From Tolypothrix sp. PCC 7910 (lineage in GTDB: Bacteria; Cyanobacteriota; Cyanobacteriia; Cyanobacteriales; Nostocaceae), in assembly GCF_011769525.1 (NCBI RefSeq), contig NZ_CP050440.1, positions 5,767,501 to 5,831,500 on the forward strand: a stretch of 64,000 bases of DNA. The letters run 5' to 3'. The translations under genes and the position numbers were made by a program. The notes below the pieces were generated by a model, which was not told the origin of the DNA, did not search any database, and saw only the letters and a program-made list of their open reading frames with translations. Of this stretch, positions 11,623 to 54,570 are shown piece after piece; within the stretch, counting starts at the first letter, position 1, and each line of letters begins with the position of its first letter.

Positions 11623-11690
11623 CTGAAATCTCTGTTAGCGGTTGATTTTGATTTACCGCTAGCTCATACCTTAATTTACAGCTAGGTCTA

Positions 11691-12071: not shown

Positions 12072-12081
12072 ATTTTTAGAC

Positions 12082-12126
12082 AATTAGGAGTTAGAAGTGA
12101 AAAGTGAAATTTTCTGACTCCTAATT
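12082..12126. repeat. 10-base inverted repeat after the DUF423 gene
   Basis: AATTAGGAGT (12082-12091) and ACTCCTAATT (12117-12126) are perfect complements with a 25-base loop that adds further A/T pairs. No T tract follows, so its role as terminator is uncertain. Confidence 0.5.
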
Positions 12127-12182
12127 CTTCAGCATTGTAGTAGCCGTAATATTCATAACAGAATTATCGAGCCAGATTTGGG

Positions 12183-12533: not shown

Positions 12534-12833
12534 GATTTTGATTTGGTTGTAAGTGAATTTTGACAGTATTTGCTAGCAATATCTATTAGTGGTCTAGCTA
12601 CAAAAATGCTTTTTTATTAATTAATAGTTGTTATAGAAGAGAATCTTTCATTTTTGCTAACACTACGTTTTTAAGTTAATTGAAAGTTTCAAATAGGGCT
12701 AGAGAACGACAAGATGTAGATAACACTGATATAAGAAAAATCCAAAAAAGCTGCAGCTAGTCTTAGGAAGCTGAGGGATTAACTATCTAATCTCAAGATT
12801 GTAACAATGATATTTCATTAGTGACACTGTTAT

Positions 12834-28201: not shown

Positions 28202-28349
28202 TGGTTAGGGACTGGGGACTAGGGATTGGGGAACTCGGGGCCCCCTCTGGGGATAAGGGGTAATGGGGACTGGGAACTAGGAGAGAAAAGCCTATTACCA
28301 ATTACCAATTACCAGTTACCTATGCCCAATAAGCAATGAGGAGAGGAGA
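28202..28349 (+). repeat. hupS-hupL spacer with G-rich and TTACCAA-type heptamers
   Basis: Contains GGGGACT/GGGATTG-type units, a GC-rich CGGGGCCCCCTC block that can pair with itself, and three ATTACCA units at about 28293-28320. A strong AGGAGAGGAG ribosome-binding site precedes hupL at 28337-28349. The fold may affect the relative amounts of HupS and HupL. Confidence 0.6.
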
Positions 28350-29945
28350 ATGAGTATTCAAACATTAGATATTTCACCAGTTGGTAGAGTTGAAGGCGAT
28401 TTAGATGTGCGGGTAGAAATTGCCGACGGACAAGTAGTCAACGCTTGGACACAAGCCGAACTATTTCGTGGATTTGAAATTATCTTGAAAGGCAAAGACC
28501 CGCAAGCAGGATTAATTGTAACACCACGTATTTGTGGTATTTGCGGTGCTTCCCACCTTTCTTGTGCATCTTGGGCATTAGATACAGCTTGGCAAACAGA
28601 AGTACCACGCAACGCTATCTTAGCCAGAAATCTTGGTCAAATTGTTGAAACGATACAAAGTATTCCTCGGTACTTTTATGGCTTATATGCCATTGACCTC
28701 ACCAACAAAAAGTACCAAAACAGCCCATTTTATGAAGAAGCCGTGAAACGCTTTGCGGCTTTTACAGGCAAATCATACGAAATAGGTGTCACTATTTCCG
28801 GCAAACCTGTACAAATTTACGCCCTTTTAGGTGGACAATGGCCCCATTCTAGCTACATGGTTCCTGGCGGTGTGATGTGCGCCCCCACCCTCACAGACGT
28901 AACTCGCGCTTGGTCAATTCTGGAATATTTCCGGACAAATTGGATTGAACCAGTGTGGTTGGGTTGTTCGATGGAACGCTATGAAGAAATCAAAACCTAT
29001 GATGACTTCATGGCTTGGTTAGATGAAAGCCCGAATCACGCCAATTCTGACTTAGGTTTTTACTGGCGCATGGGTTTGGATATTGGTCTAGATAAATATG
29101 GTGCTGGTGTAGGTAAATACATTTCCTGGGGATATTTACCCCATGAAGACAAATATCAAAAGCCAACTATCGAAGGACGCAATGCAGCCTTAATCATGAA
29201 AAGCGGTGTGTATGACAGCTTCAGCGATACTCACAGCTTAATGGAACATACCTTTGCGCGGGAAAACACCAATCATTCTTGGTATGACGAAGGTACAGGC
29301 AGTGTTCACCCTTTTGATCGCACAACCCAACCTACTCAAAATAATACCAAAGACTTTGACCACGCCTATTCCTGGTCAACTGCTGTCAGTCACATCAACT
29401 ATGGACGCTTAGAAGCTGGCCCCTTTGCTAGACAAATGGTTGCTGGTGGAAAACATGGTGAGTCTTGGCAACACTACGATGGCTTTATTTTAAGTATGTT
29501 TAAAGCTATGGGTGGTGCAAGTCTGCATCTGCGCCAATTAGCGCGAATGCATGAATTGATTAAACTCTACCGTCAAGCTGAACGCTGCTTGCGTGAGTTC
29601 CGCTTAAACGACCCCTGGTATATCAAACCCAAAGAACAAGATGGGCGTGGCTGGGGTGCAACGGAAGCGGCGCGTGGTGCTTTGTGCCATTGGATCGAGT
29701 TAGAAGGTGGCAGAATCAAGAACTATCAAGTTATTGCCCCCACTACTTGGAACGTCGGCCCCCGCGATGGTGAAGGTATTCGCGGCCCGATTGAGGAAGC
29801 GTTAATTGGTACGCCAATTTATGATGCAACTGACCCTGTGGAAGTTGGACATGTCGCCCGTTCCTTTGATTCCTGTTTAGTTTGTACAGTCCACGCCCAC
29901 GATGCCAAAACAGGTAAAGAATTAGCCCGCTTCCGCACCGCTTAG
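28350..29945 (+). CDS. hupL: Uptake [NiFe]-hydrogenase large subunit HupL
   Basis: Catalytic subunit that binds the NiFe(CN)2CO centre. The 531-residue protein has the first ligand motif RICGICGASHLS (residues about 59-70) and the C-terminal motif FDSCLVCTVH, the second CxxC. The family's usual DPC reads DSC here. The residues after the His (about 16) would be removed by the HupW protease during maturation. The reading frame is continuous: there is no developmentally excised element such as the one inside hupL of Anabaena PCC 7120. hupW is not in the window. Confidence 0.97.
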   Translation: MSIQTLDISPVGRVEGDLDVRVEIADGQVVNAWTQAELFRGFEIILKGKDPQAGLIVTPRICGICGASHLSCASWALDTAWQTEVPRNAILARNLGQIVETIQSIPRYFYGLYAIDLTNKKYQNSPFYEEAVKRFAAFTGKSYEIGVTISGKPVQIYALLGGQWPHSSYMVPGGVMCAPTLTDVTRAWSILEYFRTNWIEPVWLGCSMERYEEIKTYDDFMAWLDESPNHANSDLGFYWRMGLDIGLDKYGAGVGKYISWGYLPHEDKYQKPTIEGRNAALIMKSGVYDSFSDTHSLMEHTFARENTNHSWYDEGTGSVHPFDRTTQPTQNNTKDFDHAYSWSTAVSHINYGRLEAGPFARQMVAGGKHGESWQHYDGFILSMFKAMGGASLHLRQLARMHELIKLYRQAERCLREFRLNDPWYIKPKEQDGRGWGATEAARGALCHWIELEGGRIKNYQVIAPTTWNVGPRDGEGIRGPIEEALIGTPIYDATDPVEVGHVARSFDSCLVCTVHAHDAKTGKELARFRTA

Positions 29946-37626: not shown

Positions 37627-38493
37627 ATGACAAAAAATGTTCTCTTTATCGTGTCAGAGTGGGGCTACTGGGGCGAAGAACTCATTGGGCCCTTAGAGGC
37701 TGCTGATGCGGCTGGATACAAAGTCACCTTCGTTACCCCCAACGGCAAAAAACCAACGCCACTATCTGTAAGTTGTGCACCTGGTTATATCGATCCCCCA
37801 TTAGGACGTGGTGTTACCTCTGAAGAAATGGGAGCAAAGACCACCCGCGTTCATGAGTCAGACCGACTCGACAGTCCTAAGAGTTTAGCTGATTGGTTTC
37901 CTCTAAGAGCTTATCCTAGCTCTCCTACATATCTCAGAGATATGGAAGCCTACTACCAAAAAATCGACAAAATTATTGCGGAAGAACTAGTCAATTACGA
38001 CGCTTTAGTGATTGTTGGTGGTAGTGGCGCACTAATTGATTTAGCTAATAATTCTCGCCTACACGAACTCATCCTTGGCTTTGTCAAACTCAACAAACCT
38101 ATTGCGGCTGAGTGTTATGGAGTTACCTGTCTAGCATTTGCTAGAGACTTCCGCGAGAAGAAGAGCTTGATTTGGGGTAAGCACGTTACTGGTCACCCAA
38201 TTGATTATGACTATCTAGACGGTACAGGATTTGAAGGGCCTCACGCCATTGATGGCTCCAACAAGGGATTTGGCGACGGCTACATTAATTTTGGCCCTCC
38301 ATTCTACCCTCTAGAATTCATTCTCCGTGACGCTGTTGGCCCCGATGGAGCCTTTATCGGTAATGTTGGTCACCAAACCTCCGTTTTAGTCGATTATCCT
38401 TTCATCACCAGTCGTTCTACAGCTTCTTCTGTTGAGTGCGGTCGGATATTAGTAGAAGTCCTTGAGAAAGGACTTACCCGTTATGGATGGTAA
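37627..38493 (+). CDS. DJ-1/PfpI (type 1 glutamine amidotransferase-like) protein
   Basis: The 288-residue protein begins with a Rossmann-like strand and SEWGYWGEELIGPLEAADAA, then VTFVTPNGKKP. The nucleophile elbow is AAECYGVTCLAF (Cys in ECYG), preceded by VIVGGSGALIDLANN. This is the Hsp31/PfpI-like subgroup, whose members are glyoxalases, hydrolases or chaperones. The activity of this one cannot be stated. It is the first gene of a plus-strand set. A ThDP enzyme follows 67 bases later. Confidence 0.88.
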   Translation: MTKNVLFIVSEWGYWGEELIGPLEAADAAGYKVTFVTPNGKKPTPLSVSCAPGYIDPPLGRGVTSEEMGAKTTRVHESDRLDSPKSLADWFPLRAYPSSPTYLRDMEAYYQKIDKIIAEELVNYDALVIVGGSGALIDLANNSRLHELILGFVKLNKPIAAECYGVTCLAFARDFREKKSLIWGKHVTGHPIDYDYLDGTGFEGPHAIDGSNKGFGDGYINFGPPFYPLEFILRDAVGPDGAFIGNVGHQTSVLVDYPFITSRSTASSVECGRILVEVLEKGLTRYGW

Positions 38494-38560: not shown

Positions 38561-40267
38561 ATGACTCAAAAAACTGGTCGTTTTGCCATTCTTGAGCAAT
38601 TCCTCGCAGATGGCATCCACTATATGTTTGGTAACCCAGGCACAGTGGAACAGGGTTTTTTGGATGCCCTGTGGGAATATCCAGATCTCAAGTACATTCT
38701 GACTTTGCAAGAAACCGTGGCTGTGATGACAGCCGATGGCTACGCTCGAGCTACCAAAAAGCCAGCATTAGTCCAAATTCATAGTGGCGTTGGTTTAGGT
38801 AATGCGATCGGCGCACTTTATCAGGCTATGCGTGGTCATGCCCCGTTAGTAGTGATCGGCGGAGATGCGGGCATCAAATATACAGCAATGGATGCTCAAA
38901 TGGCTGCGGATTTGGTCGGCATGGCCAAACCCGTCACTAAATGGGCAGCCACAGTCAATGAGCCATCTTCATTGCTGAGAATGCTCCGCCGAGCCATTAA
39001 GATTGCCTCTACACCACCGATGGGGCCGGTTTATCTCTGCCTTCCCCAAGATATCCTGGATGCGCCTATAGTAGAGCCAATCTTACCAACCTTAACTCCC
39101 TCTACTCGTGTAGCACCAGACGATGAGACAGTTAAGGCAGTAGCCAAAACTCTAGTAGCTGCCAAAAAACCAATGATTTTTGTTGGTGATGGAGTTGCTT
39201 ATTCTGGGGCCCAAGCAGAGTTAACCAAAGTTGCTGAACTTTTGGGAGCAGAGGTTTGGGATGTAGACTCAGGAGAAGTCAACATCAGCTATGCTCACCC
39301 TCTATATCAGGGGGCGACAGGCCATATGTTCGGCTCTAGTAGTCTGCCAATTACCACCAAAGGGGATGTCAATCTAGTTTGTGGCACTTATATGGTGCCA
39401 GAGGTCTTTCCGGAACTAGGAAATATATTTGCTCCCGGCGCAAAGGTGATTCATATTGATTTGAACGCCTATGAGATTGCCAAAAATCACCCAGTAGATG
39501 TGGGGATTGTCAGCGATCCCAAACTGACGCTGGCAAAACTCGCAGATGCAATCAAAGATATCTTGACTGCCGACGAGCAAAATGCAGCGCAAACCAGAGC
39601 CGCAGAGATTGGTAAGGCTAAAGCAGACAAGATTGCTGCAGCTAAGGCAGCCGATCAAGCTGTCAGAGATCAGGTTCCCCTGCATTTCTCTCGGTTTATG
39701 GAAGAGCTTGCACCTCTGTTACCAGAAGATGCAATCTTCTTTGATGAAGCCTTGACCTCTTCACCCAATATCGTCAGATATAAACCACCCAGTAAGCCAG
39801 ATCATTATTTTCTCACCCGTGGAGGTTCTCTAGGGGTAGGAATTCCTGGGGCAATTGGTGCTAAATTGGCTAATCCTGACAAGAAAGTGATTGGCTTTAC
39901 AGGTGACGGCGGTGGTATGTATACCATCCAAGCTCTCTGGACAGCAGCTCGCCACAATGTAGATGCCATATTCATCATTTGCAATAACCGTTCTTATAAG
40001 CTATTGCAATTGAATATCCAAGCTTACTGGCAAGAACAAAGTGTACCCAAGCATGACTTTCCCATAAGTTTTGACTTGTCTAAGCCAGTGTTGCGCTTTG
40101 ATGAAATGGCCCGTTCAATGGGGGTGGAAGCAGTCCGAGTCGAGAAGCCGGAAGAGATTGCCCCAGCAATTAAGCAGGCATTAGCACATAATGGGCCTTT
40201 CCTAATCGATGTTGTCTTAGAGGGTGATGTTCGCCCAGACATGATTGGGATTCGGTGTGGCCAATAA
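38561..40267 (+). CDS. Thiamine diphosphate-dependent decarboxylase-like enzyme
   Basis: The 568-residue protein has the three domains of the acetolactate synthase/benzoylformate decarboxylase group. Visible: FGNPGTVEQGFLDAL (residues about 22-36), catalytic Glu in LQETVAVMTADGYARA (about 49-64), GPVYLCLPQDIL, a central VAKTLVAAKKPMIFVGDG domain, and the ThDP motif GDGGGMYTIQALWTAA leading to NN (about 445-475). It resembles the MdlC branch more than true acetolactate synthase and lacks an adjacent regulatory subunit. Substrate unknown. Confidence 0.9.
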   Translation: MTQKTGRFAILEQFLADGIHYMFGNPGTVEQGFLDALWEYPDLKYILTLQETVAVMTADGYARATKKPALVQIHSGVGLGNAIGALYQAMRGHAPLVVIGGDAGIKYTAMDAQMAADLVGMAKPVTKWAATVNEPSSLLRMLRRAIKIASTPPMGPVYLCLPQDILDAPIVEPILPTLTPSTRVAPDDETVKAVAKTLVAAKKPMIFVGDGVAYSGAQAELTKVAELLGAEVWDVDSGEVNISYAHPLYQGATGHMFGSSSLPITTKGDVNLVCGTYMVPEVFPELGNIFAPGAKVIHIDLNAYEIAKNHPVDVGIVSDPKLTLAKLADAIKDILTADEQNAAQTRAAEIGKAKADKIAAAKAADQAVRDQVPLHFSRFMEELAPLLPEDAIFFDEALTSSPNIVRYKPPSKPDHYFLTRGGSLGVGIPGAIGAKLANPDKKVIGFTGDGGGMYTIQALWTAARHNVDAIFIICNNRSYKLLQLNIQAYWQEQSVPKHDFPISFDLSKPVLRFDEMARSMGVEAVRVEKPEEIAPAIKQALAHNGPFLIDVVLEGDVRPDMIGIRCGQ

Positions 40268-40397: not shown

Positions 40398-40784
40398 ATG
40401 AGTACTACTACTACACCAGGTCGCCAGTTCTTCGATGAACACATGAAGTACATCGTCGCCAAAGATGTAGTTGGTATGGTGACCAATACCTATACAGAAG
40501 ATGCAATTCTGTATAATGCTTTTCCTTTTTTAGATACACCACCCCCAAATGTAATTAAGGGAAGAGAAGCATTAATCAAAGCTTTTGAAGGTTACTTAGA
40601 ATATCAAGGTGAAATTCAAGTTGACTCCTTATACAACTTTTTAGAAACTGACGACGTAATTTCCTTCCAAGCAACAATTACTTCCCCGAAAACAGGTAAG
40701 TGGGCAGTAGGTGATGTGTGGGTGCTCAAAGATGGCAAGGTGTCTCGTCACTTTGGTTTTGCTCATAGGCTAGGAGATGCCTAA
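40398..40784 (+). CDS. SnoaL/NTF2-like protein, 128 aa
   Basis: A small cone-shaped-fold protein of the SnoaL/NTF2 type: helix 1 (PGRQFFDEHMKYIVAKDV), VGMVTNTYTEDAILYNAF, a beta-sheet with EGYLEYQGEIQVDSLYNFL, and WAVGDVWVLKDGKVSRHFG. The family includes isomerases, cyclases, dehydratases and non-enzymatic binding proteins, so function is open. An AAGGA ribosome-binding site precedes the ATG. The last 55 bases of the gene region are duplicated directly downstream (see 40737-40856). Confidence 0.85.
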   Translation: MSTTTTPGRQFFDEHMKYIVAKDVVGMVTNTYTEDAILYNAFPFLDTPPPNVIKGREALIKAFEGYLEYQGEIQVDSLYNFLETDDVISFQATITSPKTGKWAVGDVWVLKDGKVSRHFGFAHRLGDA

Positions 40785-40898: not shown

Positions 40899-41342
40899 AT
40901 GGCTGAGTCAGGTCTTATAACTGAATCAGAACTCAAAGAATTCGCAGTTGATTGGTATAAAAAATTAGACGTTCACGCTCCCGCGGACGAGTATGCTCCT
41001 CTGTTAGCAGCAGATGTGGAATTAAGGTTTCCCGAAGCCACAGTCAAAGGTGTTGCAGGATTTAATGATTGGTATTTTTCCGCAATCAACTCTTACTTCG
41101 ATGAAGTTCACATAGTCAAACAAGTTAAATTAACCTCATCGACACCAGAACAATCAGAAGTCAAGGTAGTTGTGAAATGGGAAGCCAGTTTATGGAAGCC
41201 ACCAGCAGCCACCAGCGAACGGGTTGTTTTAGATGCTTATCAAACCTGGATAGTCAAGCGATCGCCACAAACTAATCAACCAGTTATTTCGCTTTACATC
41301 GTTGATGAATTCCAGTATTACGAGGGTTCATTTAGGTTGTAG
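40899..41342 (+). CDS. SnoaL/NTF2-like protein, 147 aa (paralogue A)
   Basis: Same fold class with a longer form: ELKEFAVDWYKKLDVH, DEYAPLLAADVELRFPEATVKG, a beta region with VVVKWEASLW, and RVVLDAYQTWIVKRSP, ending DEFQYYEGSF. It pairs with the next gene, to which it is about 60% identical by hand alignment without gaps. Such SnoaL-like proteins act on or bind small hydrophobic molecules, and the ligand is unknown. It is preceded by AAGGAGATAAATA. Confidence 0.87.
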   Translation: MAESGLITESELKEFAVDWYKKLDVHAPADEYAPLLAADVELRFPEATVKGVAGFNDWYFSAINSYFDEVHIVKQVKLTSSTPEQSEVKVVVKWEASLWKPPAATSERVVLDAYQTWIVKRSPQTNQPVISLYIVDEFQYYEGSFRL

Positions 41343-41425: not shown

Positions 41426-41869
41426 ATGAGTGAGCTAGCACCACTGACTCAACCAGAAATTCTAGAATTTGCAAAAGCTTGGTATAGAAAACTAGACATT
41501 CACGTTCCTGTGGAAGAATATGCTCCCTTGCTAGCCTCAGATGTAGAATTGAGGTTTCCTGAAGCCACAGTTAAAGGCTTTGAAGGATATAGCGGTTGGT
41601 ACGATCGCGTCATCAATATTTTCTTTGATGAAGTTCATACCGTTAAAGAAGTAACAGTCAAATCTGCGACAGCCGAAAAAGCAGACGTACAAGTAGTTGT
41701 GAAATGGGAAGCTAGTGTTTGGAAGGCTCCAGCCGCAAACAGCGAACGCATTGTTTTAGATGCTTATCAAACATGGGAAGTTAAGCGATCGCCCGAAACT
41801 AATAAACCAGTTATCTCTGTTTATATAGTTGATGAACTCAAATACTACGAGGGTTCAGCTACATTGTAA
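41426..41869 (+). CDS. SnoaL/NTF2-like protein, 147 aa (paralogue B)
   Basis: A tandem duplicate of the preceding gene: equal length, same landmarks (ILEFAKAWYRKLDIH, ASDVELRFPEATVKG, VVVKWEASVW, RIVLDAYQTWEVKRSP). Differences concentrate in the middle (residues 52-90). That part lines the pocket in the NTF2 fold, which suggests different ligands or heteromer formation. The gene follows after 83 bases with its own AAAGGAAAT ribosome-binding site. Confidence 0.87.
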   Translation: MSELAPLTQPEILEFAKAWYRKLDIHVPVEEYAPLLASDVELRFPEATVKGFEGYSGWYDRVINIFFDEVHTVKEVTVKSATAEKADVQVVVKWEASVWKAPAANSERIVLDAYQTWEVKRSPETNKPVISVYIVDELKYYEGSATL

Positions 41870-42090: not shown

Positions 42091-42483
42091 ATGGCCAAGC
42101 CTCCCGATACTGCTTTAGGAAGACTATATGAAGAACACATTCAATTAATCCTCAAAAAGGATATTGAAGCGTTATTAGATCAATATACTGATGATGCAGT
42201 TCTCATTAGTAGCTTTGAAAAAGTTCCTAAATATTTTCGCGGACGCAAAGAACTAGAAGAACATTTTAAAGGCATCCTAGGAATTGAAGGGTTACAAACA
42301 GATATTGCTTTTTGGGCAGAAACAGAAAATCCCCAGACCCTCATGATTGTTGAAGCAATTACTTTGCAGGCTGGGGGGCAAGAAGCTAAGATGCGGTTTG
42401 CCGATAGCTGGGTTTTAAGAGATGGGAAAATAGCCATTCACTTTGCTGGGATGACACAATATCCTGATGGCACAGTAGCCTAA
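42091..42483 (+). CDS. SnoaL/NTF2-like protein, 130 aa
   Basis: Similar in length and layout to the first SnoaL-like protein: LGRLYEEHIQLILKKDIEAL, LDQYTDDAVLISSFEK, LEEHFKGILGIEGLQTD, and MRFADSWVLRDGKIAIHF. It is probably a paralogue of the 128-residue protein (shared EEH helix and SWVLRDGK/DVWVLKDGK motif). Fourth member of the run. It is followed by a 100-base inverted-repeat element and then an SDR gene. Confidence 0.87.
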   Translation: MAKPPDTALGRLYEEHIQLILKKDIEALLDQYTDDAVLISSFEKVPKYFRGRKELEEHFKGILGIEGLQTDIAFWAETENPQTLMIVEAITLQAGGQEAKMRFADSWVLRDGKIAIHFAGMTQYPDGTVA

Positions 42484-42621: not shown

Positions 42622-43338
42622 ATGGATTTATCCAATCAAAAAATAGTCATAATTGGTGGGAGTTCGGGAATTGGATTAGCAAGTGCGAAAGCAATTGTAG
42701 CTGCAGGGGGAAATGTCGTAATTGCCAGTCGTTCAGAAGCCAAATTAAATGCTGCTCAAGCTGAAATTGGTGAACGGGTCACTACCTTTGGCTTAGACAT
42801 AACTAATGAACAAGAAGTGCAAACATTATTTGCCACAGTGGGAAGTTTCGATGCTTTAGTAATCACTATTTCTGTGGGATTTATGGGGGCATTTATGGAA
42901 TTAGATTCAAAAGTAGCCCGCCAAATATTTGAAAATAAATTTTGGGGGCACTATTATGCCGCTAAATATGGTGCGCCCCAACTAAAACCTAGTGGTGCGA
43001 TTGTTTTCTTTTCTGGTTATGCATCGCAAAAACCAGTACCTAATCTTTCTATCATGGCATCTGTGAATGGAGCACTGGAAGCATTAGCTCGTTCTTTAGC
43101 AGTGGAACTTAGCCCGATTCGAGTTAATGTTGTATCTCCTGGATTGGTAGATACACCTATTTATCAAGAAATGCCAGCAGAACAACGTCAAAACTACTTT
43201 AATTATGTGGCGAATTCTTTACCTGTAAAACGCATCGCGCAACCAGAAGATATTGCGGAGACAGTTCTATATTTAATCAAAAATAAGTTTACAACAGGTG
43301 CAGTAGTTGATGTAGATGGTGGAGCGAGGTTAGTATAA
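42622..43338 (+). CDS. Short-chain dehydrogenase/reductase-fold protein lacking catalytic Tyr/Lys
   Basis: The 238-residue Rossmann protein has the nucleotide motif GGSSGIGLASA (residues 12-22), SPGLVDTPI and a VDVDGGARLV ending like a normal SDR. Ser131 of the catalytic triad is present (FFSGYA). The YxxxK motif is not: by alignment to the usual YxxxKGALEAL, this protein has MASVNGALEAL, so Met145 and Asn149 stand at the Tyr and Lys positions. The NNAG motif is also absent (VITISVG). It is probably a binding or structural protein rather than a dehydrogenase. It is separated by six bases from the CoxS-like gene. Confidence 0.9.
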   Translation: MDLSNQKIVIIGGSSGIGLASAKAIVAAGGNVVIASRSEAKLNAAQAEIGERVTTFGLDITNEQEVQTLFATVGSFDALVITISVGFMGAFMELDSKVARQIFENKFWGHYYAAKYGAPQLKPSGAIVFFSGYASQKPVPNLSIMASVNGALEALARSLAVELSPIRVNVVSPGLVDTPIYQEMPAEQRQNYFNYVANSLPVKRIAQPEDIAETVLYLIKNKFTTGAVVDVDGGARLV

Positions 43339-43344
43339 GCAGCT

Positions 43345-43809
43345 ATGGAAATTTCCTTGACAGTTAATGGTAAAAAATATACGGCAGATGTTGAACCCAA
43401 TTTACTGCTATTAGATTTTCTCAGAGATCATCTTGGTTTAACAGGTACAAAAGATGATGGTGGTTCAACTTCTGGTGTGTGTACAATTCTGCTCAATGGC
43501 GTATCAGTAAAAAGCTCATTTGTGCTAGCAGTTCAAGCAGATGGTGCCGATATCGTCACAATTGAAGGAATTGCTCAAAACGGTCAACTGAGCGTTATCC
43601 AAGAAGCATTCTGGGAAAAACACGCAGTGCAAAACGGCTTTTGTACGCCAGCAATGATCTTGTCTTCAATGGATCTTTTACAACAAAATCCCAATCCTAC
43701 AGAAACAGAAATTCGTGCTTGGTTAGATGGGATTTATTCACGAGATACAGGCTATCAAAATGTTGTCAGTGCCATTAAATATGCGGCTGAAAAATTGCAG
43801 CAAACCTAG
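43345..43809 (+). CDS. CoxS-like protein with most [2Fe-2S] ligands lost
   Basis: The 154-residue product aligns end to end with small subunits of xanthine dehydrogenase/CO dehydrogenase-type enzymes (NGKKYTADVEPNLLLLDFLRD, then LLNGVSVKSSF, NGFCTPAMILSSMDLLQQNP, DTGYQNVVSAI). Those proteins have eight cysteines for two [2Fe-2S] clusters. Here only Cys46 and Cys100 remain; the other six positions are Asp/Gly, Ser (twice), Asn97, Ser132 and Asp134. The frame is intact with no stop codons, and codon use is normal, so this is a maintained gene. It cannot bind clusters in the usual way. It sits six bases after the degenerate SDR gene. Confidence 0.92.
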   Translation: MEISLTVNGKKYTADVEPNLLLLDFLRDHLGLTGTKDDGGSTSGVCTILLNGVSVKSSFVLAVQADGADIVTIEGIAQNGQLSVIQEAFWEKHAVQNGFCTPAMILSSMDLLQQNPNPTETEIRAWLDGIYSRDTGYQNVVSAIKYAAEKLQQT

Positions 43810-43907: not shown

Positions 43908-44669
43908 ATGAAACTTGAAGGTAGTGTAGTTCTAGTCACTGGTGCTAGTGGTGGTATTGGTCAACAGTTCATACAAGGATTACTAGCAGCAGGTGTTGGG
44001 AAAATCTATGCCGCAGCACGTAAAGTAGAGGCTCTTGAAAGTTTGAAGGCTGCTAATCCTGACAAAATTGTGCCGATAAAACTTGATGTTACTAACTTCG
44101 GTCAAGTTAATGAAGCCGCTGCCCAATACCAAGATGTCAATGTACTGATCAATAATGCTGGGATTACCCGTGACCAAGGGGTAATTTCTGCGCCAGACAT
44201 TGATGGTGCGCGTCAGGAAATGGAAACCAACTACTTTGGTACAATGGCGATGTGTCGCTCTTTTGCTCCAGTACTGAAAGCGAATGGTGGGGGAGCGATA
44301 GTTAATCTGGTTTCCTTATTAGGTAAAATTAACCTCCCCTTTATGGGTACATACTGTGCTTCTAAAGCCGCAGAACTATCCCTAACTCAATGCGTACGTG
44401 CAGAATTAGCAGCCCAAGGAACGCTAGTGGTTGCTGTGATGCCTGGTACAGTCGATACTGAATTTGCTAAGTATTATCCACCACCAAAGGTTGCACCCGC
44501 AGAAGTTGTTAAAGTAGCTTTAGATGCTGTCATTAATGAAGTTGAAGATGTCTATCCAGGTGACCAAGCAACTTACTTGACAGCTGAACTACTTAAAGAT
44601 CCTAAAGGTGTAGAAAAATACCTTGCAGGGATGTTACCAGGTATATTGGAGCAGCAAAAACAGCAATAG
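43908..44669 (+). CDS. Short-chain dehydrogenase/reductase, canonical
   Basis: The 253-residue protein has all SDR motifs: TGASGGIGQQF (residues 11-21), NNAGITR, VNLVSLLG with catalytic Ser, and YCASKAAELSL with YxxxK. The NADP or NAD preference and the substrate are unknown. It lies between the CoxS-like and XdhC genes, 19 bases before XdhC. Confidence 0.92.
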   Translation: MKLEGSVVLVTGASGGIGQQFIQGLLAAGVGKIYAAARKVEALESLKAANPDKIVPIKLDVTNFGQVNEAAAQYQDVNVLINNAGITRDQGVISAPDIDGARQEMETNYFGTMAMCRSFAPVLKANGGGAIVNLVSLLGKINLPFMGTYCASKAAELSLTQCVRAELAAQGTLVVAVMPGTVDTEFAKYYPPPKVAPAEVVKVALDAVINEVEDVYPGDQATYLTAELLKDPKGVEKYLAGMLPGILEQQKQQ

Positions 44670-44688: not shown

Positions 44689-45801
44689 ATGAAAGAAGTA
44701 ATAGATGAAGTCGAACAATGGCTAAGTCTGGGACATACTGTAGCATTAGCAACTGTGGTCAACACTTTAGGTTCTAGCCCCAGGGAAGTCGGTGCTGTGA
44801 TGGCGGTTAACGATGCTGGAGAAGTTCTCGGTTCTGTTAGCGGTGGTTGTGTAGAAGCAGCCGTGGTAGAGGAAGCTCTGATCGTCATAGAATCAGGCGA
44901 ACCACGGCTGGTAAGCTATGGCGTAAGTGATGAATTGGGTCTATCTGTTGGCTTAACCTGCGGCGGTACAATTCAAATTTTTATCCAGCAGTTCTCAGAC
45001 AAATTACATAGCAGTAATCTCAGTCTGAGGGATATTTTTCAGGCAATTCGCCAATCATTACAGACACCCATAGCTATCTGTACAGTGGTTGAGGGAATGC
45101 AAGCGGGAGCCAAGATGATTGTCAACGAAAAGGGCGATCGCTTGGGTTCTTTGGGTAATGCAGAGATCGATAACATGGTAGCTGATGATGCTCAAGGGCT
45201 GCTACAGCAAGGACTAACTAAATTGTCGGACTATGGCTTAAATGAGCAATGTCGGCAAGCAGAAATCAAGGTCTTTGTAGAGTCCTTTGCACCACCACCT
45301 CACTTGATGATTTTTGGTGCCATTGACTTCACGCGATCTCTCTCTGTCTTAGCTAAAGTCCTGGGTTACCAGGTGACTGTTTGCGATGCGCGCGATAGCT
45401 TTGCCACAGTTGCCCGCTTTCCTGCAGCCGATGAGGTGATTGTGGAATGGCCCCATAAATACTTAGAAAATGCTCATGTAGACCACCGCACTATGATTGT
45501 TGTTCTCACTCATGACCCCAAATTTGATGTCCCTGCCTTAGTTAGCGCAGTGAGGACACCAGCTGCTTACATTGGGGCAATGGGTAGCCGCAGAACTACT
45601 AGAGATAGAATTGCTCGTCTTCAAGAAGCTGGACTGACTGAGGCGGAAATTAACCGCATTTCTGCCCCAATTGGGCTAGATATCGGCGCTCGTACCTCAG
45701 AAGAGACCGCAGTTTCAATTATGGCTGAAGTGATTGCTCTTAGAAGTGGGCGCAGTGGTGAACGCCTATCTCACAACCAAAAACCAATTCATGCGAGATA
45801 G
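44689..45801 (+). CDS. XdhC/CoxI-family molybdenum cofactor maturation protein
   Basis: Start at the ATG at 44689 (MKEVIDEVEQW). The frame opens at 44623 inside the upstream SDR gene. XdhC proteins bind molybdenum cofactor and hand over its sulfurated form to xanthine-dehydrogenase-type enzymes. Landmarks: TLGSSPREVGAVMAVN and SVSGGCVEAAVVEEAL in the first domain, LTCGGTIQIFIQ, then the Rossmann-like C-terminal domain (LMIFGAIDFTRSLSVLAK, YIGAMGSRRTTRDRI, PIGLDIGARTSEETA). Its presence implies that the CoxL-like protein downstream is meant to receive Moco. Confidence 0.9.
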   Translation: MKEVIDEVEQWLSLGHTVALATVVNTLGSSPREVGAVMAVNDAGEVLGSVSGGCVEAAVVEEALIVIESGEPRLVSYGVSDELGLSVGLTCGGTIQIFIQQFSDKLHSSNLSLRDIFQAIRQSLQTPIAICTVVEGMQAGAKMIVNEKGDRLGSLGNAEIDNMVADDAQGLLQQGLTKLSDYGLNEQCRQAEIKVFVESFAPPPHLMIFGAIDFTRSLSVLAKVLGYQVTVCDARDSFATVARFPAADEVIVEWPHKYLENAHVDHRTMIVVLTHDPKFDVPALVSAVRTPAAYIGAMGSRRTTRDRIARLQEAGLTEAEINRISAPIGLDIGARTSEETAVSIMAEVIALRSGRSGERLSHNQKPIHAR

Positions 45802-46097: not shown

Positions 46098-47045
46098 ATG
46101 AGTAATATGAAAGCAATACATCTCCATACCTATGGTGGAACAGAAAACCTAGTTTACGAAGAAACTTCAATTCCCAGTCCAGGTTCAGGAGAAGTATTAG
46201 TAAAAGTCAAAGCGGCTGGTGTCAACCCTTTAGATTTAATGGTTCGCAAGGGTTGGTTGCAAAGTATTATTGATTATCCTATGCCCATAATTTTAGGGCT
46301 TGACCTATCAGGTGTTGTAGCAGCAATAGGAGAAGGTGTTACTCATCTTCAAGTAGGGCAGGATGTCTATGGAATCACAGACATCAAACTTTTGGGAACT
46401 TATGCCGAATATGCAATAGCTCCCAGTGACAAAGTTGTTCCTAAACCTAAAAATTTGGACTATGTTCAAGCCGCATCTGTGCCCTCAGTAGGAATAACAG
46501 CATGGCAAGCTTTATTTGATGTAGGAGGTTTATCCGCCGGACAAACTGTACTTGTTCATGCAGCAGCAGGCGGTGTCGGCAGTTTTGCAGTGCAATTAGC
46601 TAAAGCTAAAGGAGCTAAAGTTATTGGTACTGCATCCAGTCAGAATTTAGACTTTGTAAGCAGTCTGGGTGCCGATCAAGTAATTGATTACAAAACCACC
46701 AGGTTTGAAGAAGTAGTTAGTAATGTTGATGTAGTTTTAGACACTATAGGAGGAGAAACCCGGGAAAGATCCTGGGGAATTCTTAAACCCGGAGGAATTC
46801 TTGTTTCTCTGATCACTTCCGATCCAGCTTCTTCAGAAACTGCTGCTGAATATGGTGTGCGTACAGCCACAATGTTTGTAAAGCTTGAAGGTAAATACCT
46901 AACAGAACTAGCAGCCTTGTTAGATAATGGAACTATCAAAACTTGTGTAGATAAGGTATTGCCTCTGACAGAAGCTTCTCAGGCTCATGAATTGATTGAG
47001 AGTGGCGGTAAGCGGGGCAAAATCGTACTAAACATAGCAAGCTAA
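46098..47045 (+). CDS. Zinc-type alcohol dehydrogenase-like oxidoreductase (quinone oxidoreductase branch)
   Basis: The 315-residue medium-chain dehydrogenase/reductase: MKAIHLHTYGGTENL start, VKAAGVNPLDLMVRKG, and the nucleotide-binding VLVHAAAGGVGSFAVQLAKA near residue 155. The catalytic zinc ligands of classical ADHs are absent, which fits the NADPH quinone/enone reductase branch. The gene is plus-strand like the SDR-XdhC set, from which it is about 300 bases away. Confidence 0.9.
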   Translation: MSNMKAIHLHTYGGTENLVYEETSIPSPGSGEVLVKVKAAGVNPLDLMVRKGWLQSIIDYPMPIILGLDLSGVVAAIGEGVTHLQVGQDVYGITDIKLLGTYAEYAIAPSDKVVPKPKNLDYVQAASVPSVGITAWQALFDVGGLSAGQTVLVHAAAGGVGSFAVQLAKAKGAKVIGTASSQNLDFVSSLGADQVIDYKTTRFEEVVSNVDVVLDTIGGETRERSWGILKPGGILVSLITSDPASSETAAEYGVRTATMFVKLEGKYLTELAALLDNGTIKTCVDKVLPLTEASQAHELIESGGKRGKIVLNIAS

Positions 47046-48940: not shown

Positions 48941-51313
48941 ATGGTTCAACAAATCCTAGGAACATCTATTAAACGCCGCGAAGATCCAGAATTATTGCGC
49001 GGAGAAGCCAAATTTACAGCAGATATCACCCTGCCAAATATGCTGCACATGGCAATTTTGCATAGCACTGAGGCTCATGCTCTGATTAAGAGTATTGATA
49101 CCAGTGGGGCGGCAAAAATGCCAGGAGTAGTGCGGGTGATTACAGGAGCCGATACTAGCTCGATTTTGCCCCTTCCCGTAATTATGAACCCTGGCGGTGC
49201 GGCGGCGAAATTTCCACCTCATCCTTATGGTTTACCAGCCGGTCAAACAGTTTTAGCTATTAATAAGGTGCGTTATGTTGGGGATTTCGTAGCTGTAGTG
49301 GTTGCCGAAACCCGTCAACAAGCATATAACGCCCTGAAAGAAATTAAGGTAGAGTACGAGCCGCTACCAGTTGTGACTGATGCGGAGGAAGCGCTGAAGC
49401 CAGATGCACCCCAACTGTATGACAGCGTACCAGGGAATCTTAACCAGTACGCCAGTTATGGAGATAAGGAAGCAACAGAAAAGGCGATCGCATCTGCTGA
49501 GGTGGTGATCAAGCAAAAGATTCGCATTCCGCGTGTGATTGCCAATTCTAGTGAAACTCGCGCCACCATCGCAGATTACAATCCTGAAACCGGAGACTAT
49601 ACCCTGTGGACGAATACCCAAATTCCCCACGGTAACCGCTTTTTGCTGTCACAATTAGTTTTAGGAATTCCTTTCAACAAACTCCGGGTGATTGTTCCCC
49701 ACATGGGCGGAAGCTACGGATCTAAAGGATATCTTTATCAGGACACAGCTATCACACTGTTTTTAGCTAAAGAACTTGGTCGTCCCGTCAAGTGGGTAGA
49801 TACCCGTCAAGGGTTAGCACGTACCACCGTTCACTCCCACGATCATATAGAGTATGCCACCCTTGCGGGGAACAGAGACGGCAAAATTACTGCCCTGTAT
49901 TGCACTAACTACGCCAACCTCGGCGCTTTTTCTGGCACTAATGGCCCTGGTGCGCCCACAAGTTTGACAGGCCGCAGTATCTCCGGAGCTTATGCTATTG
50001 AGCATCCCTTCTATGAAGTTTATTGCGTGTTCACTAATACCACGCAAACTGGCCCCATTCGGGGTGCAGGACGGACAGAAGCCCACTGTGTAATTGAGCG
50101 CTTGGTTGACCTCTTTGCTGATGAGATCGGTTTAGATCCTGCTGAAGTGCGCCGCCAAAATATGGTTCCTCCCGATCAGTTCCCTTACAAGAACGGCTTG
50201 GGCTGGACTTATGACTCCGGTAATTATCAACTCACCCTTGATAAAGCCTTAGAAATGGTGGATTACAAAAATATTCCCCAACTCAAAGAACAAGCCAAGG
50301 CGCGAGGTAAATATCTAGGCGTAGGAATTGGTTCTTTTGTTGCCATATCTGGTGTAGGCCCTTCTCCCTTTATGGCTTCAGATATTGGTCTCAATGGTAG
50401 TACCTGGGGTAGCGTTCACCTGCGCGTACATCCCACAGGTGATGTTAGTTTAATTACAGGTAGTCAGCCCCACGGTCAAGGTCATGTAACCACCTTCTCT
50501 CAAGTTGCTGCCCAAGAACTAGGGATTGATATTGAACGCATTGAGGTATTGCATTCCGATACCAAAGGTGCTGTCTATGCTCAGGGTAGTTATGGTTCCC
50601 GTAGCTTCAGTGTCGAAGGTTCGACAGTCTATAAAGCTGCACAAAAGATTAACGAGAAAGCCCGGAAAATGGCAGCTCATATCTTCAAAGTGCCAGAGGA
50701 AGAGATTATCTCTGAAAATGGCAAATTTTATCCCAAAACTCAACCAGATCAGGTAAAAACTATACAAGATATTGCCCTAGCGCTTTGGTATGCTTGGGAT
50801 TTACCGCCAGGAATGGAACCAGGACTAGAAGTAATTACTTTCTTTGATCCACCAGATTTTAGCTATCCTTTCGGTACTCATATCGCTATAGTTGAAGTCG
50901 ATCAAGAAACTGGTGAAGTCGAAGTAGTGCGCTATGTCGCAGTCAATGATTTTGGCAATGTGGGCAATCCAATGATTGTTGATGGGCAAACCCACGGCAA
51001 TATTTATCTGGGCATTAGTCAAGCTTTATTTGAAGAAGCTGTTTATGATGAGTCTGGCAAAATCCTCACAGACGACCTCACCAATTATGCGATCGCCAAA
51101 CCTTCCGATTTACCCCACTTTGAACTAGCGCGTACCGTCACCCCCACCCCCCATAATCCTTTAGGAGCCAAGGGAGCTGGGGATGTTAGCAATCCACCTG
51201 TAGCACCTGCAATCGTAAATGCAGTCTGCGATGCTCTCAACCCCCTAGGAGTCAAGCATTTAGATATGCCTTTGACACCAGAGAAAGTTTGGCGAGCGAT
51301 GAATGGGGTGTAG
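48941..51313 (+). CDS. CoxL-like molybdopterin-binding subunit (xanthine dehydrogenase family)
   Basis: Start at the ATG at 48941 (MVQQILGTSIKRREDPELL), giving 790 residues. The in-frame TTG at 48917 is less likely. The cofactor-binding landmarks are present: GGSYGSK (256-262), RGAGRTE (374-380), HGQGHVT (511-517) and GSYGSRS (549-555). The catalytic Glu after GxKGxG is replaced: GAKGAGD gives Asp748. The protein would hydroxylate or oxidise a small substrate using Moco if active. The CODH-specific AYxCSFR loop is not present. It pairs in the locus with the degenerate CoxS-like gene and xdhC, but there is no FAD subunit. Confidence 0.92.
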   Translation: MVQQILGTSIKRREDPELLRGEAKFTADITLPNMLHMAILHSTEAHALIKSIDTSGAAKMPGVVRVITGADTSSILPLPVIMNPGGAAAKFPPHPYGLPAGQTVLAINKVRYVGDFVAVVVAETRQQAYNALKEIKVEYEPLPVVTDAEEALKPDAPQLYDSVPGNLNQYASYGDKEATEKAIASAEVVIKQKIRIPRVIANSSETRATIADYNPETGDYTLWTNTQIPHGNRFLLSQLVLGIPFNKLRVIVPHMGGSYGSKGYLYQDTAITLFLAKELGRPVKWVDTRQGLARTTVHSHDHIEYATLAGNRDGKITALYCTNYANLGAFSGTNGPGAPTSLTGRSISGAYAIEHPFYEVYCVFTNTTQTGPIRGAGRTEAHCVIERLVDLFADEIGLDPAEVRRQNMVPPDQFPYKNGLGWTYDSGNYQLTLDKALEMVDYKNIPQLKEQAKARGKYLGVGIGSFVAISGVGPSPFMASDIGLNGSTWGSVHLRVHPTGDVSLITGSQPHGQGHVTTFSQVAAQELGIDIERIEVLHSDTKGAVYAQGSYGSRSFSVEGSTVYKAAQKINEKARKMAAHIFKVPEEEIISENGKFYPKTQPDQVKTIQDIALALWYAWDLPPGMEPGLEVITFFDPPDFSYPFGTHIAIVEVDQETGEVEVVRYVAVNDFGNVGNPMIVDGQTHGNIYLGISQALFEEAVYDESGKILTDDLTNYAIAKPSDLPHFELARTVTPTPHNPLGAKGAGDVSNPPVAPAIVNAVCDALNPLGVKHLDMPLTPEKVWRAMNGV

Positions 51314-51511: not shown

Positions 51512-53176
51512 ATGGCTAAACCAATGATTTTGACCGTGGATGACGATCCTCAGGTTTTACAGGCGATCGCACGGGATTTGCGGAAGGAATATGGCGATCG
51601 CTTCCGAATCTTACGTGCAGACTCAGGAGCAGCCGCACTAGAGGCCATCAAAGAATTAAAATTACGTAACGAGACAGTAGCTTTATTTCTTGCCGACCAG
51701 CGAATGCCCCAAATGACTGGGGTAGAGTTTCTGGAACAAGCAATTGCTATCTTCCCCGAAGCGAAACGCGCCTTGCTCACCGCCTATGCAGATACCGATG
51801 CTGCGATCGCAGCTATTAATAAAACAAGTATCAATTACTACTTAACAAAGCCTTGGGATCCACCAGAAGAGCGTTTATATCCTGTCCTCAACGATTTGCT
51901 GGATGATTGGTTAGCCTCTTATCGCCCACCTTTTGAAGGGATTCGAGTGATTGGTCATCGTTGGTCGCCCAATTCTCATAAAATCAAAGATTTCCTTGCC
52001 CGTAATCACGTTCCTTATCAATGGTTAGATATTGAAAGAGATCAGGAAGCCCAAGAGTTAGTTAACTATAGTGGCGTAGATAATGCCGAATTACCTTTGG
52101 TGATTTTGCCAGATGGCGAACGTCTAGTTAAGCCTAGCAACATTGAAGTTGCAACGAAAGTCGGATTGCAAACCCAAGCTAAACAGCCATTCTATGATTT
52201 AGCAATTGTGGGTGGTGGGCCTGCTGGATTAGCAGCCGCAGTCTATGGAGCTTCTGAAGGGCTAAGAACAGTGATGATTGAACGGGAAGCCCCTGGCGGA
52301 CAAGCGGGAACTAGTTCGCGGATTGAAAACTACCTCGGTTTCCCCATTGGTTTAAGTGGTGCAGATTTAGCCAGACGCGGCGTTACCCAAGCTAAACGCT
52401 TTGGTGTAGAAATTCTTACACCCCAAGAAGTAGCAGGAATTCGCACCAACGGTAACTATCGTTATGCATTGCTCAAAGATGGCTCAGAAATCGCTTGTCA
52501 TGCCTTAATTTTGGCGATGGGTGTCTCTTGGCGGCGGTTAAATGTCCCTGGAATCGAAAAGCTCACAGGTCGGGGTATTTACTACGGTGCAGCCATGACC
52601 GAAGCAATGGAATGTAGCAACGAAAAAGTCTACATCGTGGGTGGTGCTAACTCTGCCGGACAAGCAGCGATGCATTTCAGCAAGTATGCCCAGCAAGTAC
52701 ATATGTTAGTACGTGGCGACGATCTGGGTAAAGGTATGTCCCAGTACCTCGTCGATCAGATTGGCGCGACAGAAAATATCATCGTGCAACTCAACTCCAG
52801 CGTTGTTGAGGTTAAAGGTGAAGAAAGTTTAGAAGCCTTAACGATTCTCAACAATGTGACTGGGGAAAAAGAAACCGTCCCAGCTAACTCGCTGTTTATC
52901 TTCATCGGTGCTGTTCCTCATACCGATTGGTTAGATGGCATTTTGGAACGAGATGAACATGGTTTCATTCTGACTGGCCCAGATTTAATCAAAGATGGTA
53001 AACGCCCCAAAGGTTGGAATTTAGATAGAGACCCTTACTTACTCGAAACCAGCGTACCAGGAATTTTTGCTGTGGGTGACGTGCATCATGGTTCTGTGAA
53101 GCGCGTAGCCTCCGGAGTGGGTGAAGGCTCGATATGTGTTAGTTTTGTCCACCAGTATCTTGCTAAGGTGTTGTAA
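51512..53176 (+). CDS. Fused response regulator/thioredoxin-reductase-like flavoprotein
   Basis: Three parts in 554 residues. Residues 1-135 are a receiver domain (acidic pocket Asp10-Asp12, phospho-acceptor Asp62, Thr90, Lys113). Residues about 142-220 resemble a glutaredoxin-like domain whose CPxC is replaced by WSPNS. Residues 227-554 are an FAD/NAD-binding domain (VGGGPAGLAAAVYG, PGGQAGTSSRIENY, a late AVGDVHHGSVKRV). The redox CxxC of thioredoxin reductase is missing: GIYYGAAMTEAM lies where GVSACATCDG would be. A simple disulfide reductase is therefore unlikely. Its stop overlaps the next start (TAATG), so it is coupled to the histidine kinase gene. Confidence 0.92.
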   Translation: MAKPMILTVDDDPQVLQAIARDLRKEYGDRFRILRADSGAAALEAIKELKLRNETVALFLADQRMPQMTGVEFLEQAIAIFPEAKRALLTAYADTDAAIAAINKTSINYYLTKPWDPPEERLYPVLNDLLDDWLASYRPPFEGIRVIGHRWSPNSHKIKDFLARNHVPYQWLDIERDQEAQELVNYSGVDNAELPLVILPDGERLVKPSNIEVATKVGLQTQAKQPFYDLAIVGGGPAGLAAAVYGASEGLRTVMIEREAPGGQAGTSSRIENYLGFPIGLSGADLARRGVTQAKRFGVEILTPQEVAGIRTNGNYRYALLKDGSEIACHALILAMGVSWRRLNVPGIEKLTGRGIYYGAAMTEAMECSNEKVYIVGGANSAGQAAMHFSKYAQQVHMLVRGDDLGKGMSQYLVDQIGATENIIVQLNSSVVEVKGEESLEALTILNNVTGEKETVPANSLFIFIGAVPHTDWLDGILERDEHGFILTGPDLIKDGKRPKGWNLDRDPYLLETSVPGIFAVGDVHHGSVKRVASGVGEGSICVSFVHQYLAKVL

Positions 53177-54570
53177 TGCTGGACATAGAAGAATTACGCC
53201 AAGTGGAATTGTTTGCCAGCTTAAGTGATGAGCAATTGCGGTGGTTGTGCGAACAAGGAAAAGAAATTTGGCTGCAACCTGGTGATATCCATCGCTCCGC
53301 TGGCGATCCTGCCGACCAAGTCTTTATTATGATTGACGGTGAGGTACAAGTTACCCAGAAGGTAGGCAATCAAGAAATTGTCTTAGTTACCTATGGGCCG
53401 AAAACCTTTTTTGGGGAATTGCCCATTTTAACTGGGGAAACTCACTATTGGGCTGGTGGCAAAGCTGTGCAGCCTTGCCACATCCTAGAATTGGACAAAG
53501 ATAAATTCTGGCAAATGCTAGCCACCATGCCGGCTGTCACCACCTTGATTCTGCAAACAATGGCGCAGCGGGTACAAGAGTTACAGTCCATGTCTCAGCA
53601 GCGGGAAAAACTCGCTGCTTTAGGCACAATGGCGGCGGGACTTTCCCATGAAATGAATAACCCGATGGCCGCAGTCAGACGGGGTACTGGGGAATTGCAA
53701 AAGCTATTTCAACAGTTACCCTCGCTAGTGCTGCAACTAAGTCAAAGACAATTCACCAAGCAGCAAATAGAATATTTGGGTGCTTTGCAGCAAGAAGTGA
53801 TTGCTAAGCAGCAGCAAACTACTCAATTGTCTCCCCTAACAAGATGCGATCGCGAAGATGAACTGGTTGATTGGTTAGATGACAATGGTGTAAGTGATGG
53901 TTGGAAACTCGCGCCTACCTTAGTTGCGGTCGGCTTAGATGCCAATGACCTCAGTAAAATTACGCAGCAAATCCCGGCGGAGTCGTTAGGGGATATATTG
54001 GCTTGGCTAGAAGCCAGCTTGAGCGGATTAAACTTACTCTCCGAACTCGATGAAGGATCATCCCGTGTTTATGAGCTAGTCAAAGCTTTGCAAGACTACT
54101 CTTACATGGATCAAGCACCCTTACAAGAGGTGAATGTCCATGACGGTATTGAAAGCACCTTAAAGATGATGCACCATAAACTCAAGGATGGGGTAGCGGT
54201 AATTAGAGAGTATGGCAATTTACCGAGAATCAGCGCCTATGGTAGCGAATTAAACCAAGTCTGGACTAACTTGATTGATAATGCAATTGATGCAGTTAAA
54301 GGTCAAGGTCAGCTTCGTATACATACAAAGTGCGAAAACGACCAAGTTTTAATAGAAATTATCGATAATGGGACAGGAATCGCGCCAGAAATCCAATCGC
54401 GCATTTTTGAACCATTTTTCACTACCAAAGGCGTAGGCGAAGGTAAAGGATTAGGCTTAGATATCGTTTACCGCACTGTAGTTGGGAAACATAAAGGAGA
54501 TGTCCGATTTACCTCCTGTCCTGGTAATACCTGTTTTCAAGTTCGTCTACCAGTAGTGTTGATGGATTGA
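53176..54570 (+). CDS. Histidine kinase with N-terminal cyclic-nucleotide-binding domain
   Basis: The 464-residue protein: a Crp-type nucleotide-binding domain (residues about 10-125, [25 protein letters not shown]), then the dimerisation/phosphoacceptor stretch [15 protein letters not shown] with His158. A long helical linker is followed by the ATPase with [26 protein letters not shown] and [16 protein letters not shown]. The start overlaps the flavoprotein stop by one base. The natural partner is the receiver domain of that protein. The bound nucleotide is unknown. Confidence 0.92.

Follow-up and report, generated by a model that had tools for sequence, protein, structure and literature searches.

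The 64,000-nucleotide stretch of Tolypothrix sp. PCC 7910 analyzed here (contig NZ_CP050440.1, positions 5,767,501 to 5,831,500 of the forward strand; hereafter, the window) appears to encode two subunits of a heterotrimer derived from the xanthine oxidase (XO) family, i.e., the small subunit CoxS and the molybdenum cofactor (Moco) subunit CoxL, while the gene for the third, the flavin adenine dinucleotide (FAD) subunit CoxM, lies 3.5 kb beyond the window end (G000:C1:5834999–5835880, where G000 is the source genome). The usual plan of the family, shared by bacterial enzymes and human xanthine oxidase, is a chain of Mo, two Fe-S clusters and FAD. The window CoxS has two of the eight cysteines that ligate the clusters. 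On balance, we consider it probable that the Fe-S/FAD electron path of this Mo hydroxylase was dismantled stepwise, with Moco probably retained and CoxS persisting as a cluster-free structural subunit.

The Window CoxS and Its Ligand Sites

The CoxS-like open reading frame (ORF; 43345–43809, + strand) is uninterrupted and encodes 154 residues. Its product aligned at nearly full length with the solved small subunits of glyceraldehyde oxidoreductase (4zoh_C; phmmer E 2e-49) and CO dehydrogenase (1ffu_A; E 2e-43), in agreement with a preliminary description of this DNA that had assigned it to this family over its whole length. Mo hydroxylase small subunits carry eight cysteines for two [2Fe-2S] clusters. 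In alignment with the canonical small subunit of locus L034, the corresponding columns of the window CoxS read gap, Ser43, Cys46 and Ser58 for the first cluster and Asn97, Cys100, Ser132 and Asp134 for the second. The preliminary description had identified the two remaining cysteines and these serine, asparagine and aspartate replacements correctly, as well as the intact frame and the kept flanking motifs (GTK, GFCTP, and TGYQN are present); the Asp/Gly that it placed at the remaining position is instead a gap, the first cluster loop being one residue shorter than in canonical proteins. The Pfam domain Fer2_2 matched the window CoxS with 87.7 bits, and no match to Fer2 (PF00111) was found in it at E ≤ 0.001, while both domains were matched by the two canonical relatives scanned. 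With one cysteine left per site, it follows from ligand chemistry that neither [2Fe-2S] cluster would be bound normally.

The window CoxS was modeled in AlphaFold2 with 43 sequences; the model had a mean predicted local distance difference test score (pLDDT) of 86.5, with residues 37–42 of the first cluster loop below 50. The canonical L034 protein, modeled as a control with the same 43 sequences, had a mean of 89.3 and no stretch below 50; its lowest block was in the same region. In Foldseek searches the window model gave template modeling (TM) scores, normalized by query, of 0.87–0.89 to CO dehydrogenase small subunits and 0.86 to 4zoh_C, which was the top match. We take the models as supporting evidence only.

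Distribution and Single Origin of the Cysteine Loss

Ligand cysteines were counted in an alignment of 92 CoxS rows, consisting of the window, 14 labeled cyanobacterial loci and the 77 loci L034–L110. The latter belong to the best 80 of 228 confirmed loci; the remaining three are genus mates (L031, Calothrix membranacea FACHB-236; L032, Nostoc carneum NIES-2107; L033, Nostoc linckia FACHB-104) that we took to be the same genomes as G004, G007, and G003. All eight cysteines were present in 81 rows, two in seven and one in four, and the 11 short rows are the window and its cyanobacterial orthologues. The search patterns for the 228 loci were made from the cysteine-poor query, a bias that would favor cysteine-poor matches, and despite this all 77 loci L034–L110 had eight cysteines.

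The 11 cysteine-poor genomes, from filamentous cyanobacteria, belong to four families of one cyanobacterial order: the source genome and G002, G003, G004, and G007 are of the same genus, G072 is of the same family, and G095, G179, G248, G412, and G418 are of three other families. Cys46 is the only ligand cysteine common to all of them; in G095, Cys100 is gone and the first cysteine of the CRC pair is present. The columns of Ser58 and Asp134 are constant among the 11, and columns 43, 97, 100, and 132 vary. The CoxS scans covered 148 relatives at E ≤ 1e-10 and, at E ≤ 1e-36, 388 genomes at the order level, 386 at the phylum level and 217 at the family level. These sets overlap, and those of the order and phylum are samples; the phylum sample gave four matches, every one within the order. 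No close orthologue was found on plasmids, as all 1225 plasmid records matched were below 60% identity.

Sister cyanobacterial CoxS proteins with all eight cysteines were found by alignment in G013, G229, G241, and G275, and by eye in G745, an assembly listed as 38% contaminated. Eight cysteines are also present in L034, a locus of a Ktedonobacteraceae metagenome-assembled genome, whose cluster is similar in kind (DJ-1-like protein, thiamine diphosphate (ThDP) enzyme, SnoaL-like protein, CoxS, CoxL, and CoxM). When 32 chosen CoxS rows were placed in a tree computed with the ligand columns omitted, the 11 cysteine-poor rows formed one clade (support 97/90), with the canonical cyanobacterial rows beside it (98/92). 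The same groups were recovered in a tree of 27 chosen CoxL rows (cysteine-poor, 91/89; canonical, 99/98), with L034 nearest outside. On these trees the cysteine loss arose once.

The preliminary description had proposed finding whether other cyanobacterial orthologues share the losses; the 11 genomes have one or two ligand cysteines each. It had also held that orthologues with the full cysteine set, together with a sequencing error, would overturn it. The former exist, as the five sister genomes demonstrate; the latter is practically excluded, since 11 separate assemblies carry the loss.

Changes in CoxL and CoxM

The window CoxL (query taken from position 48947; 788 residues) matched the large-subunit domains of Mo hydroxylases over the cut-offs (Ald_Xan_dh_C, 95 bits; MoCoBD_1, 223 bits; MoCoBD_2, 254.9 bits), is the sole match of its kind in the source genome at E ≤ 0.001, and has 8uem_A as its best match in the PDB. 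We compared 81 CoxL rows, 66 of the 77 other loci having given a CoxL match. The Moco-contact motifs of CoxL are kept, GGSYGSK being somewhat variable. The catalytic glutamate of the family (GxKGxGE) is replaced by aspartate at residue 746 of the 788-residue query. In the 81 rows this column holds aspartate in 14, glutamate in 60 and a gap in seven. Aspartate is confined to the cyanobacterial orthologues, occurring in 14 of 15 (the fifteenth is cut short), while glutamate occurs in 60 of the 66 others, with gaps in six. The role ascribed to this glutamate is activation of the Mo-OH group (PMC3624778; PMC10420851). A literature search for the kinetics of glutamate-to-aspartate mutants found no paper with E730, and none with Glu730 among the papers listed.

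CoxM, the only match to the FAD-subunit family PF00941 in the source genome, has 1ffu_C as its best PDB match. It reads TIGD in place of TIGG, the second glycine motif of the FAD subunit, which is conserved in NDH, CODH, Qor, and bovine XDH (PMC8305194). The second glycine of this motif is replaced in all 12 cyanobacterial CoxM orthologues compared, a set that leaves out G002 and G003 (aspartate in 11, asparagine in one). Among 13 other rows it is present in 12, including the xanthine dehydrogenase (XDH)-type subunits of G013 and G004, and the thirteenth row ends before the site. The change suggests that FAD may be weakly bound by CoxM or absent from it. In G013, G229, G241, and G275 the CoxL aspartate and the loss of the CoxM glycine occur together with an eight-cysteine CoxS, and by parsimony both partner changes therefore preceded the cysteine loss.

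In 10 of the 11 cysteine-poor genomes CoxL is intact and shares a contig with CoxS, no more than ~17 kb away; the distance is <1 kb in G072, G412, and G418 and 15–17 kb in G095 and G179. The two genes are far apart in G229, G241, and G275. In the cysteine-poor genomes the frames are open for CoxS in 11 of 11 and for CoxL in 10 of 11. An apparent loss of CoxL in G095, judged from a first 20-kb stretch, was wrong: CoxL is found ~15 kb away, next to CoxM. An apparent stop codon in CoxM of G179 was rejected, as the gene ends there. In G275, which has a canonical CoxS, the CoxL frame (locus L171) is disturbed over about the first 65–100 codons by an assembly error or a recent mutation. A NifU_N-type gene lies just upstream of coxM, beside the cysteine-poor set, at L149:7816–8283, and also in G004 and G007.

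The possibility that a canonical second CoxS serves CoxL in trans was rejected, as 8 of the 11 cysteine-poor genomes (G000, G003, G072, G095, G179, G248, G412, and G418) had one PF01799 match over the cut-off. A further match in G412 was below the cut-off (15.9 bits), and the completeness of the G412 and G418 genomes is 79 and 81%, respectively. Two matches were found in G002, G004, and G007, the second lying elsewhere, accompanied by FAD-subunit and CoxL-like genes of its own. Given that the source genome has one CoxL, one FAD-subunit and one CoxS-family match, no second CoxS supplies clusters there.

A chaperone of the XdhC type, which sulfurates Moco and inserts it (PMC2997495), is a trait of Mo hydroxylases and is present in the source genome. 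XdhC was found in eight of the nine genomes tested, i.e., seven of eight cysteine-poor ones and G013, and was missing only from G248. It lies within the cluster in G002, G004, and G007 and elsewhere in the genome in G072. A gene that we take to encode a MocA-like nucleotidyltransferase adjoins xdhC in G095 and in the stretches of G229, G241, and G275; of the 15 stretches searched, the remaining 12 had no match to it.

Selection on the Cysteine-Poor CoxS

Ratios of nonsynonymous to synonymous substitution rates (dN/dS) were estimated with a Nei-Gojobori script, excluding more distant pairs that were near saturation. For CoxS of the source genome the ratio was 0.034 against G007, 0.069 against G002, 0.044 against G004, 0.101 against G003, and 0.073 against G072 (dS 0.93), and for three canonical CoxS pairs it was 0.079–0.152. 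Against the same four genus mates, CoxL gave 0.040–0.053 and the ThDP enzyme of the cluster 0.045–0.064. The cysteine-poor CoxS is under purifying selection, in line with the earlier proposal that the gene is maintained, and with dN/dS of 0.03–0.10 a pseudogene is unlikely.

Proposed Model and Alternative Explanations

We propose that in an ancestor of the cyanobacterial lineage the CoxL glutamate would have become aspartate and the glycine of the CoxM FAD motif would have been lost, changes whose distribution is observed and whose order follows from parsimony, and that in one sub-lineage six or seven of the eight cluster cysteines then disappeared from CoxS, as the alignment records. CoxS would have persisted in a structural role, bridging or stabilizing CoxL and CoxM, while CoxL, judging from the kept motifs and the kept xdhC, would still receive Moco from XdhC. 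These changes suggest that the complex may no longer pass electrons in the usual way. The Mo site would then probably run a reaction in which electrons are balanced at the molybdenum itself, candidates being exchange of an oxygen atom or hydroxyl group between two substrates, isomerization and hydration. XO-family sites are capable of oxygen abstraction and insertion in one cycle (PMC10420851), and such a reaction would need neither Fe-S clusters nor FAD. That a Mo enzyme of the XO fold with Moco and three subunits has shed the whole electron-export chain, i.e., two Fe-S clusters and FAD, in favor of redox-neutral or self-balanced Mo chemistry is possible, and we put it forward tentatively, with more doubt than belief. 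The cluster-free role beside the Moco subunit that the preliminary description had suggested fits this model, while its single-subunit picture was too narrow, as CoxL and CoxM have changed too.

Several observations weigh against this model. Aspartate may act as the base instead of glutamate, and loss of FAD binding by the TIGG glycine-to-aspartate change is not a given. That CoxS, CoxL, and CoxM still form one complex is assumed; in the source genome CoxM starts ~16 kb after the CoxL end. The difference between the window and control AlphaFold2 models is small, and the support of the CoxL tree for a single origin is moderate (91/89). CoxM evolves faster than its partners, with dN/dS of 0.279 (G007) and 0.157 (G004). 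Among six divergent cysteine-poor CoxS proteins, three of the eight ex-ligand columns are invariant (Cys46, Ser58, and Asp134), compared with 74 of 154 residues overall, and five of the six keep Asn97, Ser43, and Ser132. The ex-ligand columns are thus conserved no better than average, and the replacement residues show no selection for themselves; the idea that they were selected in their own right is not supported. Finally, G248 (locus L161) has an intact CoxS and, downstream of it, a CoxL broken after ~358 residues and followed by two short ORFs that we take to be a split transposase (CoxL and ORFs together, L161:10436–11533 and 11575–12644). No CoxM match was found there at E ≤ 1e-5, XdhC was not found in this genome, and no DJ-1 or ThDP gene was matched in the stretch. 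G248 may represent a recent loss or hint at an independent role of CoxS.

The main rival holds that the complex is still a redox hydroxylase whose Mo site gives up its electrons directly, whether to oxygen, to a quinone or to a soluble carrier, with CoxS as a scaffold only. We regard it as unlikely, while noting that its account of CoxS is common to the model proposed above and that the probabilities of the two overlap. The kept Moco motifs and XdhC, the carboxylate that still occupies the base position and the adjoining SDR and quinone oxidoreductase-like genes are consistent with direct electron exit; the deep burial of Moco described for XDH (PMC2997495) speaks against it. A slow decay under relaxed selection, in which the whole hydroxylase is losing function and the cysteines were lost as unneeded, would account for the joint alteration of the FAD motif, catalytic glutamate and cysteines, the broken or disturbed CoxL frames of G248 and G275, the CoxM dN/dS of 0.16–0.28 and the unremarkable conservation of the ex-ligand columns. 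It is nonetheless improbable in light of the open frames of CoxS (11/11) and CoxL (10/11) in the cysteine-poor genomes, the low dN/dS between the source genome and its genus mates (0.03–0.10 for CoxS, 0.04–0.05 for CoxL), the kept Moco motifs and the presence of xdhC in 8 of 9 genomes.

It is similarly improbable that CoxS has left the enzyme for a job of its own, for instance in binding or regulation within the ThDP/SnoaL/DJ-1 cluster. Its persistence in G248 beside a broken CoxL, with CoxM and XdhC not found, and its position in the window, adjoining SDR1 and ~5 kb from CoxL, would fit such a role, whereas an intact CoxL lies within ~17 kb in the other 10 cysteine-poor genomes (<1 kb in three), the fold is kept over its length and the insertion in G248 may be recent. 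The "binding protein" of the preliminary description received no specific support. An unusual metal site in CoxS, made of serine, aspartate, asparagine and one or two cysteines, is very improbable: the replacements are mostly possible ligands and the Ser58 and Asp134 columns are constant among the 11, but Cys46 is the sole cysteine common to all, the loop is one residue short and columns 43, 97, 100, and 132 vary.

Under the stepwise model, partly and fully wired relatives would survive as a record of the dismantling steps. A selected lineage with an apparently dismantled plan and living intermediates makes it testable which part of the enzyme needs electron export, as well as whether an Fe-S subunit can have a purely structural role and whether XO-type Mo sites perform redox-neutral catalysis in nature.

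Gene Neighborhood

The CoxS gene belongs to a recurrent cluster that encodes a DJ-1/PfpI-like protein, a ThDP enzyme, SnoaL-like proteins, SDRs, CoxS, XdhC, and CoxL and, further on, CoxM, a VOC protein and a second DJ-1 protein (Table 1). Its content and order vary among genomes, the G072 stretch being without SDR1, SDR2, and XdhC. None of the 25 NCBIfam models shown was matched above its cut-off by the ThDP enzyme. Proteins b and c are similar 147-residue proteins in tandem, only one of which was matched in the stretches of G002, G007, and G072. The ORF at 46098–47045 (+ strand) presumably encodes the quinone oxidoreductase-like (QOR) dehydrogenase mentioned above. No literature on the role of the cluster was found that joins three of the terms benzoylformate decarboxylase, Nostoc, SnoaL, and DJ-1.

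Table 1. Positions of CoxS, its former ligand sites and associated genes in the window.
Feature	Position	Strand	Evidence or remark
DJ-1/PfpI-like protein, recurrent cluster member	37627..38493	+	
ThDP enzyme, benzoylformate decarboxylase/acetolactate synthase-like	38561..40267	+	Pfam
SnoaL-like protein a	40398..40784	+	Pfam
Protein b, resembles protein c	40899..41342	+	Itself without Pfam match
SnoaL-like protein c	41426..41869	+	SnoaL_2 under Pfam cut-off
SnoaL-like protein d	42091..42483	+	Pfam
SDR family oxidoreductase SDR1	42622..43338	+	Ends 6 bases before CoxS start codon
Cysteine-poor CoxS-like small subunit, 2/8 ligand Cys	43345..43809	+	phmmer, Pfam, alignment
Former first cluster loop D37–C46	43453..43482	+	1 residue short; Cys46 sole survivor of 3 ligand Cys
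Former ligand pair N97–C100 (canonical CGFC/CGYC)	43633..43644	+	Alignment
Former ligand pair S132-R-D134 (canonical CRC)	43738..43746	+	Alignment
SDR family oxidoreductase SDR2	43908..44669	+	Pfam
XdhC/CoxI, Moco sulfuration and insertion chaperone	44689..45801	+	Pfam, genome search
CoxL, Moco subunit	48941..51313	+	Moco-contact motifs present; Asp in catalytic-Glu column (GAKGAGD)

Window positions 51512–54570 encode a thioredoxin-reductase-like protein with an N-terminal receiver-like domain, followed by a cyclic nucleotide-binding histidine kinase and an ORF similar to it. Near CoxS/CoxL of G013 (L113), homologues of the reductase-like protein and the kinase are present too. SnoaL-like domains and RTX-type calcium-binding repeats are combined in one protein at 59079–61700, and similar ORFs are found around the cluster in other genomes. 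Two ORFs at 27239–29945 are presumably the small and large subunits of an uptake [NiFe] hydrogenase. The frame of the large subunit runs without a break, whereas in Anabaena 7120 an excisable element splits hupL.

Comparison with Known Systems

No published report of a cluster-free member of this family was found by a search whose reach excluded most subscription papers and all bioRxiv preprints. Passages of PMC10609526 concern enzymes that lack Moco, not Fe-S ligands.

The aerobic CO dehydrogenase CoxLSM (1n5w, 1ffu, and 8uem) is alike in three-subunit make-up, length and fold, and differs from the system described here in that the window CoxS is without the two ligand sets, CoxL has aspartate for the catalytic glutamate and the CoxM FAD motif reads TIGD. 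The active-site stretch AYRCSFR marks CO dehydrogenases. It is found in L062 and L098, while the window CoxL has PIRGAGR and scored 627.5 bits against the CoxL equivalog model TIGR02416 of NCBIfam, below the cut-off of 991.15. Glyceraldehyde oxidoreductase (4zoh), the best match of CoxS in sequence as well as the top Foldseek match, differs in that its aligned small subunit has the ligand cysteines of both clusters. Precedents for the proposed chemistry come from two further enzymes. 4-Hydroxybenzoyl-CoA reductase (1rm6), a member of the XO family, catalyzes a dehydroxylation, i.e., the reverse chemistry (PMC10420851), but has an extra [4Fe-4S] cluster rather than fewer clusters. Pyrogallol-phloroglucinol transhydroxylase, which belongs to the dimethyl sulfoxide (DMSO) reductase family and not to the XO family, transfers a hydroxyl group by abstraction and insertion in one Mo cycle (PMC10420851).
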